Shown: piece after piece, positions 51,968-64,000 of the stretch
Layout: each line of letters opens with the position of its first letter
Position numbering within the stretch: the stretch's first letter is position 1
Assembly (NCBI GenBank): GCA_026874595.1
Contig: CM049322.1
Location: forward strand, 29,885,340 to 29,949,339
Direction: 5' to 3'
Length of the DNA: 64,000 nt
Source: Sipunculus nudus
Lineage: Eukaryota; Annelida; Sipuncula; Golfingiida; Sipunculidae
Notes under the pieces: generated by a model
Seen by the model: the letters and a program-made list of their open reading frames with translations, nothing else
What the model was told of the DNA's origin: nothing
The model's database searches: none
Made by a program: the position numbers and the translations under genes

Positions 51968-52459
51968 TAAGGATCTAATGTAAAGATTTCTTCATTATAT
52001 TCTGCCTTCGCAGAATGTGAAATAAAGTGATTTGTTTGTCCATCTCTCTCTTTATTATTAAATATCTAATAATCATGAATCATTTTTTCCCTTTAAGCAT
52101 TTTTTAATTAAATTTCATATCCTGTATGTATATGCAGAGGTTTTGCAACTCCCACCATCTTCCCCCCTCCTACAATTGATCCCTTGCACCTGTGCAGTGG
52201 GGATGTTAGTTGTATTGCAATTGTTTAAATTGTAACAAATTGAAAATAACAGACGGGGTGCTCGTGTGCTCGTTGTGAGTGGACGTGTGCTCTGAGAGAC
52301 TCTCTTTCTATGGCAAATAACACCTGTATTACCAGCTGAATATTGATGAAAATTTGCCGAGAGACCCATGAGGGACAGTTTCGAATGATGTGGAAATATA
52401 AGGTAAATTTTGCAAAGAATTCTTTGTAAAACTGACAGATATATTATTGAATTGTATTA
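51968..52459. other. unassigned, possible LINE-B 5' UTR at the right edge
   Basis: No repeat or domain recognised. The start of LINE-B lies somewhere between here and 52588. Confidence 0.3.
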
Positions 52460-52587
52460 TTGGATCCTGTGATTGTCTACTCAGTGAACCATTCAGTCAA
52501 AGCCCTGCGGTTAGGGCACGGATTTGTGTGGCGCGTTTTCAGGTACCCTGTTCATCGAAGAGCTGAATACACGATAGCATTGTCAGA

Positions 52588-53916
52588 ATGGAACACGACT
52601 CTGTGTTGCCCGTGTTCTTTAAAAATGACACTGTGCTTTCCAATACAAACATTAAAAACTCTATGAGACCTTATGAAGTTTGTTCTGCTGCAGCTCAGGT
52701 TGTTGGCTCGGACAATATTGATGGTGCACAAAAAATAAAAAAATCTGTGGAGAATATATGTGAAATCAATTGATGCAAGAATAAAACATTTGACAGAGGG
52801 ACTGTCTCTACGGAATAAGTTTGTACAACTTTCCGACACAAACCCTTATAGTGCAAGAAATTCAGACAATTTCCCAGCACCCATCAAAGTCACAATTGCA
52901 GATGTCCCCCTCTCATTTGACAATCAATCTACTGTTGAACACTTACAGTCAGAATATAAGCTTGAGCTACGTTCTGAAATAAAATATCAATATGAAAGGA
53001 CAAAAGAAGGACTCCTGACCCATTACAAAAATGGAAACAGATTTGTTTTTGTGAAATCGCCATTGGCAAACCCACTACCACGAAATGGACAAATTGGACC
53101 ATTTCAGTGCAGATTTTTTCATAATGATCAGTTCAAGGACCTGACCTGTATAGTATGTCACAAGAAAGGTCACAAACAGGTAGCAAATACTGTGAGCATT
53201 ACATACCTGATCAATCAATGGAAATTGTGTCTGGCCATGATGATATTCTCTCCAACTCCTTCCCTTGTTCTTTGGAAATGTACGGGAAAACTTTTAAAAG
53301 CGCTGAACATGCGTTTCAGTATAGATGCGCATATGAATTGGACCAAGATGCGTTGGCCAATGAAATTGAAACGCAAAACATGCAGGAGTTGCCAAGAGAA
53401 TTGGCCAGATCTTGCACTCCTGATGAATCTGTGGACAGACATGAAATTGAAATTTTGGAAAATTTCCTGTTAGAGAAAGCAAAACAGATCCCTGAATTCA
53501 AAGAAGCTCTAATGAAATCAGGTACAGCACCGATTGCCCACACAGTTCAAGATAAACAGTGGGGAACAGGGCTGTCCGAATTTCTGTCCAGAGTCACCAA
53601 GGTGGATGCATGGCCTGGTAGGAACTTGTATGGTGCCACACTTGAGAAAATAAGATCCTTTTATAGTGCGGAAAATCATGACAGAGAAAAAGCAACTAGC
53701 AATATAGCCTCAGTACAAGACCAAGAGTCCAACCAGGTTTTTCAAGGCATGGGAACACCGAAACGAAAACTATCTGAACAGTCACCAAATCAGCAAAATC
53801 ATACAAGCTTAAGAGTTTCACTGAAATCTCGCAGATTTGACTTTAGCCCACAGTCTGAACAAAGAGGTGTCGTCGAAGATCGTGTTTTTGAAGAAAGTGA
53901 TGGAGAATATTATTAA
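52588..53916 (+). pseudogene. LINE-B ORF1: N-terminal region, CCHC-like knuckle, NADAR domain
   Basis: The ATG at 52588 opens a 61-codon frame. In a run of A's near 52735 the reading shifts to the frame containing 52760-53190 ('IKHLTEGLSLRNKFVQL', 'FPAPIKVTIADVPLSF', 'NGNRFVFVKSPLANPLP'). This resembles an ORF1 nucleic-acid-binding region and ends in 'CIVCHKKGHKQ', the front of a retroelement zinc knuckle. A one-base shift near 53180 joins it to the third frame, where 'SKYC' supplies the last Cys and the NADAR domain follows. Two frameshifts are therefore visible; the intact protein would be about 440 residues. ORF2 begins within about 100 bp downstream, as usual for two-ORF LINEs. Confidence 0.7.
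53155..53916 (+). CDS. NADAR (YbiA-like) domain, intact 253-codon frame within LINE-B ORF1
   Basis: This frame is unbroken from 53155 to the stop at 53914-53916. Residues 27-170 match the NADAR/DUF1768 fold in order: 'ILSNSFP' (31-37), 'SAEHAFQ' (49-55), 'WGTGL' (136-140), 'WPGRN' (153-157), then Gly160 and Arg167. NADAR proteins are N-glycosidases: bacterial YbiA acts on riboflavin intermediates, and other members are reported to remove ADP-ribose from guanine bases. The usual 'KA' after the SAEH-Q motif is 'CA' here, so one family lysine may be missing. The C-terminal 80 residues are polar with a basic 'PKRKLSEQSP' patch that could be a nuclear signal. The true protein probably starts upstream in ORF1, since the residues before 'SKYC' are out-of-frame knuckle sequence. 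Confidence 0.8.
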   Translation: MSQERSQTGSKYCEHYIPDQSMEIVSGHDDILSNSFPCSLEMYGKTFKSAEHAFQYRCAYELDQDALANEIETQNMQELPRELARSCTPDESVDRHEIEILENFLLEKAKQIPEFKEALMKSGTAPIAHTVQDKQWGTGLSEFLSRVTKVDAWPGRNLYGATLEKIRSFYSAENHDREKATSNIASVQDQESNQVFQGMGTPKRKLSEQSPNQQNHTSLRVSLKSRRFDFSPQSEQRGVVEDRVFEESDGEYY

Positions 53917-53974
53917 CAAAGTAAAAAAAAAATAAATAAATAAGTGATATAAATATGAAAGACAATTGAAAACC

Positions 53975-54925
53975 ACATGACAGATTTGAATAGACAATTA
54001 AATATGTTCATTAAATATAAGAGGTCTCAATAATTATGATAAAAGGAAGAAATTATATACATGGTTAACATATAGAAATATTCATATTACTTTTTTACAA
54101 GAAACCTATTGCACTATAATGTCATCGAATAATTTATTGGTTCATGGAAAGGTCAAATATTTCATAGTCATGCATCGTCACCACATAGCAGAGGTGTTGC
54201 AATGCTATTATCAGATAAAATAAATATAAAAATTTTAAATATTCATTGCTGCAAAAATGGTAGAAAAATACTGTTGAATACGGAATACAAAGGTAAAAAA
54301 TTATGCTTAGTATGTGTTTATGCACCGAACAAAGAAGGGGAACGGAAACTTTTCTTTGAGGAATTAGAGAAATGGTTAATGGAAAAAAGTGATTCTTTAA
54401 GGTATATCATTATGGCAGGTGATTTTAATTGTTGTCTGCAAGATGATGATAGGAGCATGATGTCACATATGGCAGACCAAAGTAGAATACTATTGAAAAA
54501 TATGTTAAATACTTTAAAGCTAACTGATATATGGAGTTGTTATGGCAGGTTAAATAACCGATTTACATGGTCAGAAAGGAATGTAAGCAGTAGACTTGAC
54601 TTTTTCTTTATCTCTAAATAAAGAACTCTGGAACTGCTTAAATTATGACTGTGAATACGTACTGTCAGAGCAAAAAGAACATTGGCTGTCAGATCACAAA
54701 GCTATAAAGTTATGTCTGGATTTTAAAGTAAGCATTAGAGGGCCGGGATATTGGAAACTAAACGTCAGCCTATTAAATGATCCAATTTATATTGGGCTGA
54801 TGAAAGACTGTATTGCCTCTAGTTACACTCGTTATAAACACAATTCTGCGAGGCTAGCTTGGGAATGATAAAAATTAACATAAAAGAAGCAAGTATTAAC
54901 TACTCTAAATCGAAAAGAAAAGAAA
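53975..54925 (+). pseudogene. LINE-B ORF2, endonuclease half
   Basis: From about 54016 the frame reads 'NIRGLNNYDKRKKLYTWL' and 'ITFLQETYC' (catalytic Glu), then shifts near 54150 into the 139-codon frame at 54202-54621: 'RGVAMLLS', 'LVCVYAPN', 'MAGDFNCCL' (catalytic Asp/Asn) and 'SRLDFFFIS'. After another shift near 54625, the frame to 54868 has 'LSDHKAIKL' (the SDH motif) and 'RGPGYWKLNVSLLND'. This is a complete AP-endonuclease domain of L1/Tx1 type. The following 'INYSKSKRKEN' spacer stops at the insertion starting 54926. Three or more frameshifts show the copy is dead. Confidence 0.8.
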
Positions 54926-57072
54926 ACAAGTGACCCACGGGTCATGACGCTCAGCTGCCATGCATGACCTGTGACATCATGGACTGAGATTCACAACTTC
55001 CAGTCAAATTTTGAAGAACCAATTTGCCAATTTGTTGAAAATTTTATATGAAAACAGAAATATATATCACCTATGTCTGATTATCATAAGTACCTGGTTT
55101 TATGGCTTTTATTTATATTAAAAAATAACTGTAAAAAATTCATTTTGGACTAATTTCACATCAATGTACACACTAGACACAGTAGGAATCTAGATTAATA
55201 TTATCAACTGCATCTTTGTCTATCATTAATTTCCTTCATATGATCCCTAATGATTAGTAATGAATAATATGATTTACTTCTTTATCATTAAAATTGAACT
55301 GAAAAATGCCATAGGTGACTGCATGGTGTTATTTGGAATATGTGACATTCTACCCATCGATACAAGATTCTTATATCATCAGTAACTGCAAGTTAATTTC
55401 CTGTTATTATAAACTAACAAATTCCTTTTCTATTTTTCTTTAATTTGTTATTAAAAACCAATAAAAATTTATTAATTTGTTGTTTATTGTTATGTTGTTG
55501 GTTAAAACTACTAGATGAGTTGGGTTGGACACCTGGATCAACTGTGGCTGGCCATAAGCTGCCTGGATTCCTGTATGCCTCGCCTCAAGCGTGCATAATT
55601 TGATGAAAGGTCAACAAGGTCAACATACAGGTGACTCACGAGGGGCTGGAGAGAGCCAAAGTCTGACAGGGTCTCATAAAAAACATTAATAAAAGCTACA
55701 ATTTTTGGCCAATTTCTTTCAGCTTTCTAAACTAAAAAGCTGAAATCCTTATGTGTGCATTATATGAAAATGATATCAACAGTGCTCACGGGAAACAAAC
55801 GTGCCATGGTCACAGTTGGGCAAAATTTAAGGTTCTAATTTTATATTTATACTAATAACTTATAAAATTTGAAAAATTCAGAACTAATTTTGGGTATTCA
55901 ATTGAATCTTGATTAAATAATGTTACATCCCTGACAAAAAAATCTCTAGCAATGCCCTTGTTAAGGGAGTAAATATATTTCTTGATTTTTTACAAAGTGC
56001 ATTATGTTTGGGCCCATAACTTAAAACAATTACGCAATACTGACATCATTCTGGGATGTGCATAGAGAATGAAAAGTATATATATTTGATTATGATTAAA
56101 GTCAGATCAGTGGTTCTGATATTAGGCAGTCTTGAAGTGTAACAATGGGTTTTTAATGGAAAAATGAAGTTTTTCATTAATATCTCGAAGGTATTAAGTC
56201 CTAGTGACCAAATTCTTGGCATGGTAGGGGATTTTGGAGACATCTAACTGTATGCTGAATTTAAGGAACTTAGAGCTGAAGCTGGGGAGCTGAGCTTTTG
56301 CAAACTGCATAACACTAGCTTGATGTAAACAATATGTTACAAGGTGCTTGAAAACTTGATTAAAATCTTCAGTTTTTGATCAACTGGTTTCAAATTTTTG
56401 GTGTTAACAGATGAAATGCTGACAAAAACATGCTGTGAAAATTAAATCCACAGTACTTACAGGAAAAAAACGTGCCATGGTCAAAGTTGGGCAAAATTTA
56501 AGGTACCAATTTTTTATTTTTATTAATATTTTAAAAAATTTAAAAGATTTTCATCTAATTTTGGGTATACAATTTAATTTTGATAAATTAAAGTTATATT
56601 ACTGGAAAAAAGGTCCACAGCTTTAACCTTTTTTGTGTTAAGTGATCAAATATCTTTCCTTATTTTTTTCAAAATGCATTATGTTTGGGCCCAGAACTTT
56701 TTAAAATTAAATAATACAGACATAATTTCTGGCATGTACATAGGAACTATATAGAGGAATATTTATGGTAAATATGAGGAAAAACAGATGAGTGGTTTTG
56801 ACATTAGGCAGTCCTAAAGTGGGAAAATAGGTTTTTAATAAAAAATTAAGGTTTTTCCTTAATTTCTCAAAGGAACGAAGTTGCAAAGACCCAGTTTTCG
56901 GCTTGGTAGGAGATCTTGGGGACATCTAACAGTATGCCGAATTTTGGATTCCTAGGTCTTACGGTTTCAAAACATGCCACATCTACGGACGGACGGACGG
57001 ACAGACGGACGGACGACGGACAATGGACCACGACTATAGCTCAGATGACTTATAGTCAGCTGAGCTAAAAAA
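54926..57072 (+). mobile_element. F1-family element with both ends, inserted in LINE-B
   Basis: It starts ACAAG plus TGACCCACGGGTCA (54931-54944, one mismatch from a perfect palindrome) and GACGCTCAGCTG. It ends with GGACGGACGGACGGACAGACGG (from about 56985) and the hairpin TAGCTCAGATGACT/AGTCAGCTGAGCTA plus AAAA (57037-57072). Inside, two related 800-bp halves (about 55.5-56.27 and 56.28-57.07 kb) repeat the 'gtgccatggtcaaa..tgggcaaaatttaaggt' block. It is 2.15 kb and non-coding. Confidence 0.75.
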
Positions 57073-58629
57073 TAGAGATGGTCTATAAAATAAGTAATTG
57101 TGAACATCCCTGACCTATGACCTTGGCCTTTTGCCCATATATCAACTGGATTCTTTCTAAATGATGGGTAACTACTGACCACTTTAATCTGGTGTAATTA
57201 CTTGGCAACCAATGGGTGAATAACTTTGACCTGCAACATTTAACCTGCTGACCAGCTGACCCCAAAATCAATAAGTTATTTATTCAAGCAAAAAGACCCA
57301 TAAATATGAAATTTGAGTCAAACTGAGTTATGCATAGATGTGGCATATGTGAAAGACTGAAGGTTTGGGTTGAACAGTTACACTTTAAATATGCTCACAA
57401 GCATTTAGAACAATTAAATATTGTGACCTTGACCTTTGACTTTTTGACCTCAACATCTATAGGCTTCTTCCCTTATTGGTAGGTAAGCCATATATGACAG
57501 ATGGAAGGTACAGATTGAAAAGTTTGCCTGAAAATGACTCCATGCAAGAAGTGGGTGCTGTGAACTTGACCTTTGACCTCAAAATCAACAGGTCTTTTCC
57601 CCTGTTGGCAGAGAAGCGATATCAGTGCTGGAAGGTTTGGAATGAAAAGTCTAGCTTGAAATGTGTCCACTACCTTTTCAAAGAAGTGGATCCTGTGACC
57701 CTGACCTTTGACCTTGTGACCTCAAAATCTATAGGATTCTTCTCCAACTTAGTAGGTGAGCTATATGTGAAAGATCAAAGAATTGGGATGAAAGGGTTGG
57801 CTTAAAATATATCCACAGGATTTTCAAAGAAGAGGCTCCTGTGACCTTGACCTTTGACCTTTTGACCTAAAAAAAATTATGGTTCTTCCCGTGTTGGTAG
57901 GTGAGCTGTATGTGAAAGATTGAAGGTTTGGGATGAAAATTTTGTCTCAAAGAGTTATTTCTGGGGGGTGCAAACACCCCCCATAACCCCATGAACTTGA
58001 CCTTTGACCTCAAAATCAACAGGTCTTTTCCCCTGTTGGCAGAGAAGCGATATCAGTGCTGGAAGGTTTGGAGTAAAAAGTTTATCTTGAAATGTGTCCA
58101 CTACCTTTTCAAAGAAGTGGATCCTGTGACCCTGACCTTTGACCTTGTGACCTCAAAATCTATAGGATTCTTCTCCAACTTAGTAGGTGAGCTATATGTG
58201 AAAGATCAAAGAATTGGGATTAAAGGGTTGGCTTAAAATGCATCCACAGGCTTTTCAAAGAAGAGGCTCCTGTGACCTTGACCTTTGACCTTTTGACCTA
58301 AAAAAAATTATGGTTCTTCCCGTGTTGGAAGGTGAGCTGTATGTGAAAGATGGAAGGTTTGGGATGAAAATTTGGTCTCAAAGAGTTATTTCTGGGGGGT
58401 GCAAACAGACCCCATAACTTCGAGAATATAGGTCGCAGTGACCTAATTTCAGGTTTGCAAGGAGATCTTTTCATAACCTCTTAGACTGCATAGGGTTCAT
58501 GGCCCTAGCCCCTACAGTTACGATTTGTGCCCTGCTAACGGCCGGACGGCCGGACGGACAGACGGAAGGACGCCGGACAAAGACCCATCGCTATAGCCCA
58601 GCATGACTGAAAGTCAGCTGAGCTAAAAA
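57073..58629 (+). mobile_element. family E, 5'-truncated copy with an internal 431-bp duplication
   Basis: It joins the preceding F1 end at 'aaaaatagagatggtct', which in full E copies is internal (about 22264 and 60966), so about 1 kb of E is missing. A segment from about 57561 is repeated from about 57992 (shift 431 bp). It ends in the hairpin TAGCCCAGCATGACT/AGTCAGCTGAGCTA plus AAAAA (58594-58629). Confidence 0.7.
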
Positions 58630-61600
58630 TCAAGGAAATACATGCCAGAACTAGAATACGGGTAGTCGACAAGTGACTACGTGTATCCGCCTAAATCAGA
58701 GTGGAACTGGTGAAGTGAGGCATGGATTGAGTGGCAAGGGGAAATAGAGTGAAGTGTTGCATATTAGCATGGATGTCTGCAGCCCCATTGTGTATGTAGG
58801 TTGCGCCACCTACAACAAAATCCAGAAAGCTGTCCAAGTTGTATACATATGCAAAATTTAAGGCAGATTAGACAAACCACTACATGTATATGAGTGCTTT
58901 CTGCCCTTGGCAGACAAACAGACGGACGCTGTGCAAAAATGGCTGCATGTGGCGCCACCAGTTTTGCGTATGATAAAGAGCTATGTGAGAACTATACACA
59001 TAGAAAACTTTGGCAAAATCGGTCAAACGGTTCCCAAGATATGAGCTTGGATATCTGCTGCATAAATGTAAAATGTAGGTGGCGCCACCTGTCATAAAAT
59101 CAAGGGAGCTGTCCGGGATGTATAAACCTGCAAAATTTTAGGCAGATATGTCAAACCACTGCAGAGATATGAGTGATTTTATCCCATGGCAGAGAAATAG
59201 AGGGGAGCTGTGCAAAAAAGGCTGCAGGTGGCGCCACCAGTTTTGCGTATGATACAGAGCTATGTGAGATCTATACACATGCAAAATTTTGGCTCAATCG
59301 GTCAAACGGTTCCCGAGATATGAGCTTGGATGTCTTCAGCGTAAACATTAATGTAGGTGGCGCCACCTGTCATAAAATCAGAAATGTTGTCTAGGATGTA
59401 TAGGCATGCCGAATTTTAGGTGAATTAGTCAAACAACTGCAGAGATATGAGTGATTTTAACCCCAGGCAGATGAACAAATGGACACTGTGCAAACATGGT
59501 TGCAGGTGGCGCCACCTTTTGTTGTGTATGTTATAAAGCTATCCCAGGGCTATATTTGTATACGCATGCTGAATTTCAGGTGAATTAGTCAAACCACTGC
59601 AGAGATATGAGTGATTTTAACCCAAGGCATACAAACAGATGGACACTTTGCAAACACAGTTGCAGGTGGCGCCACCATTTTTTTGTATGTTATACAGCTC
59701 TCCAAGGGCTACATTTGTGCAAAAAAGTTTTCCTGATCGGTCAAACGGTTCCCGAGATATGTGGGTTTATGTGTGGAAACAGACGCACAAACTGACGCAG
59801 AGCGCAGAGGAAAGGTCAGAGGTCAAAACAAAATCAGGGTGCAGCAGTTCACATGTGACCTGAACATAATCCCGGGTTTCTTAAAATTCCGCCGAGCTGT
59901 TATGGAGGAGTTCTCCGGACACCTGCGCGGCGGCGGCGGCGTGCAGCTGAAAACAGTATCCGCAAAACTCTGTTTTGGTGGATACAATTATTGAGAAACA
60001 GGTGCTTTTGTATGAATTTTTATTCAATACAAGCCAACTGTACTGCACTTTTATAAATGATGGTAATATTTATTCAGAAATTTTTGACCCAATCCTTTAC
60101 AAGATTACATAAATATACATCCAACTGCATTCACTTTAACTGTTCTTGCGATAATATGATCAAAAGGAATTAAAAGATGGTTGCCTGGTGGCCATACTGG
60201 ACTTCTGACAAGTCTGAAATCAAACAACAAACATTCTCTAAATCAGACCAAACATTTAAGAAAAATTACTGAAACTGCACTGAAGAAATAATTTCTAAGG
60301 TGGCTAACTGGCAGACATAATGGATTTCTGACAAGTACGACATTTGATATCCCACATTCTCCAATAAGAGACCAAACTTGGGGCAAATTATCCAGTAATG
60401 AATGCCCAAAATAATTCAAAAGGCATGTCCAGGCACTCATATCAGATTTATAGATATGCAATTGTAAAAAGTGTAAGTCCAATATTTTTTATTATCACTC
60501 TGCTTTTCAATGGGGTCAGCAGGGTAGGTAAACTGCCAAACCTGAAAGAAAAGAAAAGCAGAAAGCATGACTAAGAGTCTTGAACAAAACAAAAAGCCAT
60601 CCTAAATCAAGGTACACATCCACATATTATGAGAACAAACACTTGCTTTTATATGTGGTGATATATATTAAAATATTTAGATATCTAGGAAACTACGTTT
60701 ATTGCTAGGATTCCATAAAATAAACTGCAAAATGTTCCCATCATCTTATAAATCAGTAGCTAAACCTTAATACTATACTCTCATAGTCTTAATGCCTGGC
60801 TGAAGCATTCAGACAACAGTGTTTTTGTTATGAAGTAACGAGGTACTTATCACTGAGCCTTATCACTTAATAGGCTGATACAAAAGGGAGTCATATGTCA
60901 CCAGTGTCACTCCCAATTACAGCCACACAGGGAGATGTACCAGCTGGAGTGGTTATATATACAAGAAAAATAGAGATGGTCTATAAAATAAGTAATTGTA
61001 AACATCCCTGACCTATGATCTTGGCCTTTTGCCCACATATCAACTGGATTTTTTCTAAATGATGGGTAACTACTAACCACTTAAATCTGGTGTAATTACT
61101 TGGCAACCAATAACTTTGACCTGCAACCTTTAACCTGCTGGCCAGGTGAACCCAAAATCAATAAGTTATTTATTCAAGCAAAAAGACCCATAAATATGAA
61201 GTTTGAGTCAAACTGAGTGATGCATAGATGTGGCATATGTAAAAGACTAAAGGTTTGGGTTGAACAGTTACACTTGAAATATACTAACAAGCATTTAGAA
61301 CAATTAAATATTGTGACCTTGACCTTTGACTTTTTGACCTCAACATCAATAGGCTTCTTCCCTTATTGGTAGGTAAGCCATATATGACAGATGGAAGGTA
61401 CAGATTGAAAAGTTTGCCTGAAAATGACTCCATGCAAAAAGTGGGTGCTGTGAACTTGACCTTTGACCTCAAAAACAACAGGTCTTTTCCCCTGTTGGCA
61501 GAGAAGCGATATCAGTGCTGAAAGGTTTGGAATGAAAAGTCTAGCTTGAAATGTGTCCACAACCTTTTCAAAGAAGTGGATCCTGTGACCCTGACCTTTG

Positions 61601-62092
61601 ACCTTGTGACCTCAAAATCTATACGATTCTTCTCCAACTTAGTAGGTGAGCTATATGTGAAAGATCAAAGAATTGGGATGAAAGGGTTGGCTTAAAATGC
61701 ATCCACAGGCTTTTCAAAGAAGAGGCTCCTGTGACCTTGACCTTTGACCTTTTGACCTAAAAAAAATTATGGTTCTTCCCCTGTTGGTAAGTGAGCTGTA
61801 TGTGAAAGATGGAAGGTTTGGGATGAAAATTTTGTCTCAAAGAGTTATTTCTGGGGGGTGTAAACACACCCCATAACTTCGAGAATATAGGCCACAGTGA
61901 CCTAATTTCAGGTTTGCAAGGAGATCTTTTTATAACCTCTAAGACTGCATAGGGTTCATGGCCCTAGCCCCTACAGTTACGATTTGTGCCCTGCTAATGG
62001 ACGGACGGCCAGCCGGACGGACAGACGGAAGGACAACGGACAAAGACCCATCGCTATAGCCCAGCATGACTGAAAGTCAGCTGAGCTAAAAA
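58630..62092 (+). mobile_element. family E element split near its start by a D element
   Basis: A short left piece (58630-58648, 'tcaaggaaatacatgccag') and the right piece from 59986 ('...ttgagaaacaggtgctt') correspond to contiguous 'tcaaggaaatccattgagaaac' at 21260. It runs through about 140-bp half-site repeats (61.3-61.8 kb) and an ACGG microsatellite to the hairpin at 62057-62092. LINE-B coding sequence resumes immediately after. Confidence 0.65.
58649..59985 (+). mobile_element. family D element, full-length reference copy
   Basis: It starts AACTAGAATACGGGTAGTC, pairs with GACTACGTGTAT to form a 5' hairpin, and continues into GTATCCGCC. It ends with GTATCCGCAAAAC then CTCT then GGTGGATAC inside a hairpin at about 59956-59985. 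Exact GGTGGCGCCACC palindromes occur at 59078, 59227, 59356, 59505 and 59665 (spacings 149, 129, 149, 160). A (CGG)n-rich patch lies near 59920-59940. It is 1.34 kb and non-coding. Confidence 0.75.
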
Positions 62093-64000
62093 TAGTAGAT
62101 TAGCTATGATAGACAAAAGGATTAAACAAATTTCACAGCTTATTAGTGTAAATTCAAAAGCTAAGGATATAGAAAGATTAAAAGAAGAAAAGCATTTACT
62201 TGAAATAGAAAAAAATGAAATATTTGATAACATAACAAAAGGTGCTCAAATACGTAGTAGAGCTCATTGGATTGAACAAGGGGAAAAGAGTACGAAATAC
62301 TTTTTCAAGCTGGAGAATAAAAACCAGTCAGATAACACTATTTATAAAATCAGAGAAAACAATAATATAATAGAAGATGATGAAGAAATACTAAATCATA
62401 TAAATAATTATTACAAAAACTTATATACATCACACAATCCATGTGTGAAAGAGATACAGAAATACTTAAATAATATAAAATCTTTAAATGTTTTAAGTGA
62501 TGAAGATAAAGATATATGTGATGCAGAAATGACAATGGATGAAATTAAAATGGCTGTAACTCAAATGAAGAAAAACAAGTCCCTAGGATTAGATGGCATC
62601 CCTATTGAATTCTACGTGACTTTTTGGGACGACCTAAAAGAGTTTTTATATAATGCTTTTATAGAATCGTATCGTCACAATAAATTATGTACTACAATGC
62701 GTACAGCTGTAATAGCAATATTATTTAAGAAAGGAGACAAATATAATTCAAATAATTATAGACCTATAAGCCTCTGTAACACTGATTATAAAATATTAGC
62801 ACAAGTATTAGCAAATAGATTGCAAAATATTTTACCAAAAATAATTGACACAGATCAGACCGGACACATTAAAGGTAGAAACATCGGAAATAATTTACGC
62901 CTAATCATGGACATATTTGAATTTGCTAATAATATAATAAAGAAGGGGGGGTTAATTTTTCTCGATTTTACAAAGGCTTTTGATAGCTTAGAATGAAATT
63001 TTATGTTTGAAACTTTTAAAAAATTTAATTTTGGTCAGAACTTTATCAACTGGATTAAAACTATTTACAATAACCCACTTTTTACCACAAAAAACAACGG
63101 ATGGTTATCTTAAAAAAATGTAATGAAAAGAGGTATGCGACAGGGCTGTCCAGTATCTGCATTACTTTTTATTATTTCAGTTGAAATATTGGCACAAAAA
63201 ATACGAACAAATTATAATATTAACGGCGTTATTTTTTTGGCAGTAAAGAAATAAAACTTAGCCAATATGCAGATGATACTACTTTGACTCTGAGAAATGA
63301 TAATTCAGTTTCAACTGCCTTGAAGGAAATTTATGAATTTGGAAACCTAGCTGATTTAAAACTAAATCTGGAAAAAACTACCGCTTTAGATCTGGGAAAT
63401 AATAAGCGGCATAAAGATCCAATAGGAGTAAAATGGACAAAACAGCCAGTAAAATGCTTAGGAATTTGGTTTGGATATGATGAGAAATGTATAGAAAAAC
63501 TAAACTGGGAAGATAAAATTGATAAAATAGAAAATAACATAAAAATTTGGAAGTTGAGGAATCTAAGTTTAATTGGAAAAATATTAATTGTTAAGACAAT
63601 ACTTTTATCCAAAATAGCATTATAAGCTTCGGTACTACCAATTCCGGACGGATTCGAAAAAAGAATAAACAAAGTTATTTATAACTATATTTGGAATAAA
63701 ACAGAAAAAATTAAAAGGTCAGTTTTAATAAGAGATATAGAGGAAGGCGGTCTTAAAATGATCGATATCAATAGTTGGTTACTTTCATTTAAAGCTGCAT
63801 GGGTACCAAGAATACTTTATGAAGAAAATAAATGGAAACATATCTTTAAATATTATTTACACAACTGTGGGCTCCATACAGACTGGGTATTTAACACAAA
63901 CTGTGTATCAATAAAGCAGTTTTGCATATTGAAACATATACCCCAATTTTATAGAGAAGTGATATTAGCTTTTAATAAATGTAAGGTTAAAAGAGAGATT
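62093..64000 (+). pseudogene. LINE-B ORF2, reverse transcriptase half (continues past the window)
   Basis: The frame at 62106-62996 (296 codons, the longest in the window) reads 'RSRAHWIEQGEKSTKYFF', 'LGLDGIPIEFY' (RT entry), 'NYRPISLCNTDYKILAQVL', 'DQTGHIKGRNIGNN' and 'LIFLDFTKAFDSLE' (motif A, first catalytic Asp). A TGA and shifts follow; 'RGMRQGCPVSALLF' (about 63130-63170) is motif B. 'YADDTTL' near 63267-63287 is the catalytic box, in the frame leading into 63284-63625 with 'CLGIWFG' and 'LSLIGKILIVKT'. One TAA (63623) then 'GGLKMIDINSW' and 'SFKAAWVPRILYEE' to the window edge. At least three disabling changes, fewer per kb than LINE-A. Confidence 0.85.

Follow-up and report, generated by a model that had tools for sequence, protein, structure and literature searches.

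The window analysed here, a 64,000-nucleotide stretch of the Sipunculus nudus genome (GenBank assembly GCA_026874595.1, contig CM049322.1, forward-strand positions 29,885,340 to 29,949,339), holds a LINE copy that is read on the forward strand and divided in two by other DNA. The 5' part of the element (52241..54929, +), which comprises the 5' region, ORF1, and the start of ORF2, is 96-97% identical by blastn to its relatives L046-L050; position 52241 marks the start of the longest blastn match (to L049), and the true 5' end may differ. ORF1 (52588..53916, +), delimited by comparison with relatives, consists of an N-terminal part, one CCHC knuckle, a NADAR domain, and a tail, with its first Met at 52588. 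Its frame slips in the window copy; in L046 and L049, the ORF1 frame spans 449 amino acids, with knuckle and NADAR inside one frame. The N-terminal part, as represented by L046, gave no Pfam match at E ≤ 5. The zinc knuckle, recognized by its CX2CX4HX6C pattern at 53147..53193 (+), reads CIVCHKKGHKPGSKYC in L046 and L049, and the NADAR domain follows at 53254..53658 (+). Downstream lies the ORF2 endonuclease, whose domain is partly in one frame at 54133..54621 (+; Exo_endo_phos, E = 8.8e-8). The succession of knuckle, NADAR, and LINE endonuclease along one strand, which an earlier note on this DNA had described from the letters alone, is thus borne out.

An insertion of approximately 7.2 kb (54930..62087), visible as a break in the blastn matches, splits ORF2. 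The remainder of ORF2, with its reverse transcriptase (RVT_1, E = 4.1e-14), occupies 62088..64000 (+), runs off the window, and is 96-97% identical to L046, L047, L049, and L050. At the break, the blastn coordinates overlap by five bases (L046, L047, and L049) or four bases (L050), which fits a short target duplication caused by the insertion. The idea that the window holds two LINEs, the second ("LINE-B") at 62 kb, was rejected because 52241-54929 and 62088-64000 match successive parts of the same four relatives. Likewise, the ATG at 53155 was discarded as a protein start, since it lies in knuckle DNA but in a different reading frame. Relative to L046, the frame of the window copy slips by one base between the knuckle and NADAR and then twice more, as a compensating pair, inside NADAR, leaving approximately 17 residues foreign. 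With these compensating slips in an element that is itself split, the 253 open codons from 53155 to 53916 are no evidence of constraint on this copy, contrary to what had been argued.

The identification of the domain itself proved sound. Pfam places NADAR (PF08719) at residues 34-168 of the 53155-53916 frame (E = 3.2e-16), and its score of 60.4 bits lies well above the cut-off of 35.1, as do those of the relatives L046 (64.3 bits), L036 (93.1 bits), and L041 (91.1 bits). A phmmer search of the window protein against the PDB returned no match. When the NADAR residues of the window were modelled with AlphaFold2 (mean pLDDT 73.9) and compared with the PDB by Foldseek, the sole matches at E ≤ 0.001 were 8bau (TM 0.66), an oomycete NADAR with ADP-ribose, and 2b3w (TM 0.65), E. 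coli YbiA. The profile match and the YbiA fold predicted by the model thus agree, confirming the YbiA-like assignment made in the earlier note.

The genome examined comprises 1.43 Gb in 153 contigs, with the window on a contig of 61 Mb, and contains at least 141 NADAR profile matches (150 of 204 candidates scored). Among the loci read, 22 are of the LINE ORF1 type and fall into six families: R (the window, L046, L047, L048, L049, and L050; six loci), K (L031, L032, L033, L036, and L037; five loci), Q (L039, L040, L041, L043, and L044; five loci), G (L051, L052, and L056; three loci), H (L053 and L057; two loci), and F (L058; one locus). In families G, H, and F, for which the pieces read were short, endonuclease matches lie directly downstream at all six places; no knuckle was seen in the piece of family F.

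Linkage was also counted from the opposite direction, by searching the genome with the start of the L046 endonuclease. The best 150 of 2552 candidates, once pieces had been merged, gave 144 loci, which were crossed with 141 and 88 NADAR places from two genome searches; a NADAR was counted if it had the same orientation and lay no more than 2 kb upstream. Among these loci, a NADAR precedes 20 of the 28 endonucleases that are 75-100% identical to the query, neither of the two at 50-74%, 21 of 25 at 40-49%, one of five at 38-39%, and one of 84 at 31-37%, the last being family F. Taken together, 41 of the 55 endonuclease loci of at least 40% identity have a NADAR just upstream, with gaps of 2-370 bases, as against 1/84 at 31-37%, still among the best 150 of 2552 candidates. 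Three of the 18 loci of at least 38% identity that lack a NADAR match were inspected: L059 holds a broken NADAR, L060 its last 16 residues or so, and L061 an ORF1 tail only. These counts indicate that NADAR marks one group of LINEs. The domain is therefore an integral part of ORF1 in this LINE and its relatives rather than a host gene, as the earlier note had maintained; the absence of NADAR from related copies, which that note had named as evidence to the contrary, was looked for in the same genome, and the relatives were found to carry the domain.

Pfam recognizes Exo_endo_phos and RVT_1 in L046, and RVT_1 and zf-RVT in L039. The best PDB match to the L039 ORF2 is human LINE-1 ORF2 (E = 2.9e-69), followed by R2 proteins (7.8e-18), which assigns the element to the L1 group. 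It is probably of the Tx1 type, a label carried over from its oyster relatives (PMC12477816). NADAR in a LINE ORF1 has been published before: in the Pacific oyster, several Tx1 LINE families are described as having ORF1 proteins that appear to contain NADAR domains of the YbiA family, with a role called unclear (PMC12477816). Those oyster assignments are Repbase search matches, and the likeness to them is drawn from the published description; by contrast, linkage, selection, loss of the acid, and a TRIM-like module were here examined within one genome. The same report describes an LTR retrotransposon that has captured a NADAR, although this domain lies in Pol and retrieves almost only bacterial NADARs (PMC12477816). 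RNA viruses of invertebrates, including picornaviruses of annelids and bivalves, provide a further case of an RNA-copying element with a NADAR (PMC9503650); they are likened to the present element by description only, and they are viruses with an RNA-dependent RNA polymerase rather than LINEs. What NADARs do in animals is described as unclear (PMC11125620). Among the literature matches listed, no account of the catalytic state, selection, or TRIM relation of LINE NADARs was found.

Comparison between families indicates that the NADAR domain has been retained by purifying selection, a point that the earlier note had raised as worth examining. For knuckle and NADAR together, pN/pS is 0.23 between G and H (bootstrap 0.17-0.30), 0.39 between R and G, 0.46 between R and H, and 0.49 between K and Q. 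In these four pairs, where pS reaches 0.80-0.89, saturation affects silent sites and has not extended to protein sites, hence the conclusion that the domain is selected. In the most distant pairs, NADAR alone gives 0.74 (R-K) and 0.63 (R-Q), values at which both site classes are near saturation. K and Q share 48.9% identity in NADAR, 44.9% in the endonuclease, and 57.8% in part of the reverse transcriptase. In family R, NADAR is the most diverged part compared, at 31.4% identity to K and Q, with the endonuclease at 43.5-44.9%. Within families, where the pairs are few and non-independent, pN/pS of NADAR is 0.41 in R, 0.60 in K, and 0.51 in Q, that of the endonuclease 0.70, 0.38, and 0.55, respectively, and that of the reverse transcriptase 0.81 in R and 0.82 in Q. 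NADAR is thus below the endonuclease in R and Q and above it in K; such values are too weak to be used alone.

The catalytic site presents a different picture. Two residues of the oomycete NADAR, E43 and E125, hold the distal ribose, and five others (K50, R79, W89, R93, and W133) the pyrophosphate (PMC11543638). Substitutions in the E. coli C7 NADAR at D171, which corresponds to E125, or at K95, which corresponds to K50, are reported to cost efficient hydrolysis, which is lost in D171A/N, and K95R works in vitro (PMC11543638). An offset of 2 was applied to transfer these residue numbers to the 8bau chain, by which E43, K50, E125, D130, and W133 land on the right letters. On this basis, the LINE domains share fold and family with YbiA, the DarT1-linked NADARs, and the oomycete enzyme, yet the acid of those enzymes (E125/D171) is replaced: Glu or Asp occurs at the E125 site in 0/22 LINE loci read. 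Within family R, the residue is Leu in L046, L047, and L049 and His in the window, L048, and L050. It is Asn in all five loci of K, Tyr in all five of Q, Leu in G (three loci) and H (two loci), and His in F (one locus); four of these last six loci were aligned, and the alignment of F here is unsure because of the divergence of that family. Of 18 further NADAR loci compared from the same genome (10 host-like and 8 SGNH-linked), 17 have Glu or Asp, the remaining one, L022, having Phe. The sharing of Leu by R, G, and H, between which silent sites are saturated, points to an old fixed state rather than recent decay.

The rest of the ADP-ribose pocket has been lost in part. The K50 site is Cys in R, Arg in K, and Lys in Q, and the R79 site is Gln in R, Ala in K, and Arg, as in the oomycete enzyme, in Q. 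Across the six LINE families, E43 is kept in five, D130 in all six, and W133 in three; R and K keep E43, D130, and W133, and Q keeps E43, K50, R79, and D130. The W133 site is Leu in Q, G, and H. Phage NADARs are described as having His at the E125 site, and one phage NADAR as active (PMC11125620); the window's own His variant is consequently not certainly dead.

L1-type ORF1 proteins coat the RNA of their own element. The C-terminal half of ORF1 in this L1-group LINE comprises a CCHC knuckle and, behind it, a NADAR with its fold selected, its catalytic acid gone, and part of its ADP-ribose pocket kept, which would make it a pseudoenzyme. Beside the knuckle, the NADAR would give the LINE ribonucleoprotein a binding module and not an ADP-ribose remover, with RNA, ADP-ribose-bearing nucleic acid, or a host or partner protein as candidate ligands. 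Judged from sequence comparison, a degenerate binding domain is the reading toward which we incline, by a modest degree, in preference to an eraser. His at the acid site in phage NADARs as well as in the window, L048, L050, and L058, and the retention of K50 and R79 in family Q, count against it, as do the high pN/pS of the most distant pairs, the mixed values within families, the strong divergence of NADAR in family R, the unsure alignment of F, and Leu at the W133 site in Q, G, and H. The earlier note had proposed that the retrotransposon carries its own eraser of ADP-ribose marks; its view of NADAR as an integral ORF1 domain stands, with selection between families in its favor, the eraser activity is not supported, and the argument from the open frame fails. 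An active LINE NADAR would strip ADP-ribose from guanine of the element's own RNA or cDNA, with another residue replacing the acid. NADARs are reported to reverse guanine ADP-ribosylation in both DNA and RNA (PMC11543638, PMC11833690), and guanine-specific DNA ADP-ribosylating activity is described in six edible clams, with CARP-1 in one (PMC11209040), making a host mark for the LINE to erase conceivable. E43 is kept in R, K, and Q, and His at the E125 site of the window copy matches the phage enzymes. Nevertheless, the acid is missing throughout the 22 LINE loci, the replacement is Leu in the long-frame copies L046 and L049 (R) and L053 (H), K50 has become Cys in the window's own family, and the only three DarT matches lie on contigs C83, C84, and C110, with none on the large contigs C1-C17. 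Such activity is accordingly regarded as improbable.

A part of the ORF1 protein that is purely structural or RNA-binding, its link to ADP-ribose gone, would also account for a fold under purifying selection without the catalytic acid, and the pairs found at K50 and R79 (Cys and Gln in R, Arg and Ala in K) are consistent with it. It fits less readily with the persistence of E43, D130, and W133 in R and K and of four pocket residues in Q, where the W133 site is Leu, and it is held to be a real but minority possibility. An accidental transfer of a host NADAR gene into a single LINE copy, with no function there, as the broken and split state of the window copy might suggest, is scarcely credible: six LINE families have the same domain order, on which ground this explanation was rejected, and selection is seen between them. 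The retention of the fold without the acid across a clade of LINEs suggests that a mobile element can make use of NADAR with no removal of ADP-ribose.

The NADARs nearest to those of the LINEs are held by TRIM-like host genes. Single-frame genes of this kind were observed at C5:28.2-28.9 Mb (L034, L035, L038, and L042) and at C3:12.3 Mb (L045), with open frames of 541-676 codons in which a knuckle is followed by NADAR. In L034, zf-RING_2 (E = 4.8e-7) and zf-B_box (E = 7.8e-6), both above the Pfam cut-off, lie upstream of the knuckle; L038 and L042 resemble L034 by eye, and L035 does so by its knuckles. Pfam gave no RING or B-box match in L045. A simple pattern check of the frames in 9-kb pieces of the five TRIM-like loci found no endonuclease motif. 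The CX2CX4HX6C spacing is common to 5/5 TRIM-like loci and to 5/5 LINE families tested (one copy each), and the E125 site is Gln in 5/5 TRIM-like loci. Three pairs of TRIM NADARs give pN/pS values of 0.20-0.25.

In two trees calculated without the long row L055, one of them also without L058, LINE and TRIM NADARs together were separated from host, SGNH-linked, oomycete, and bacterial NADARs with support of 100/97 and 99/97; five rows that are near-copies, cut, or broken (L047, L013, L056, L022, and L014) were left out of all trees. With L055 included, LINE and TRIM NADARs do not fall on one side of a branch, and the AU test gives p = 0.355 for their holding together. For the LINE NADARs alone as one clade, the AU test with L055 included gives p = 0.374, and in the two analyses without L055 this grouping appears in 34% and 4%, respectively, of the 200 bootstrap trees, values that neither establish nor reject it. 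The nearness of LINE and TRIM NADARs and their shared knuckle suggest a transfer of the knuckle-NADAR module between LINE and host, in one direction or the other. By analogy with TRIM5-cyclophilin, the host may have grafted a knuckle-NADAR piece of LINE ORF1, lacking the catalytic acid, onto a TRIM protein, which would use it to join or detect the LINE ribonucleoprotein and target it for degradation; we consider this scenario doubtful at present. If true, NADAR would be an interaction surface in a conflict between LINE and host, and not an enzyme. The occurrence of the same module in host TRIM-like genes makes such a contest testable.

Several other NADAR arrangements were encountered. A repeated type (L009-L013, L015, L016, and L020) has frames in which a NADAR with its catalytic Glu kept is followed by a GDSL/SGNH hydrolase, recognized by Pfam in L011 and by eye in the other NADAR-SGNH loci. 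L011 and L012, on two contigs, share 99.7% identity along 3.1 kb, and a frame upstream in L011 resembles a Ulp1-type protease by eye; this type is perhaps a DNA transposon with NADAR. Another repeated type (L054 and L055; 96% identical over 1.5 kb) shows the reverse order, SGNH-like and then NADAR, and its NADARs are without the catalytic acid. The DarT matches (C110:5307-5846, C83:752794-753354, and C84:9647-10207) occur only on these lesser contigs, and a 355-aa NADAR frame lies on C133; all four possibly represent bacterial contaminants or symbionts rather than the host. A search of genome_contigs with an animal NADAR as query gave no confirmed match. Clusters of partial NADAR matches at C15:13.10-13.22 Mb, C2:44.62-44.65 Mb, and C5:80.05-80.17 Mb look like tandem host gene families.
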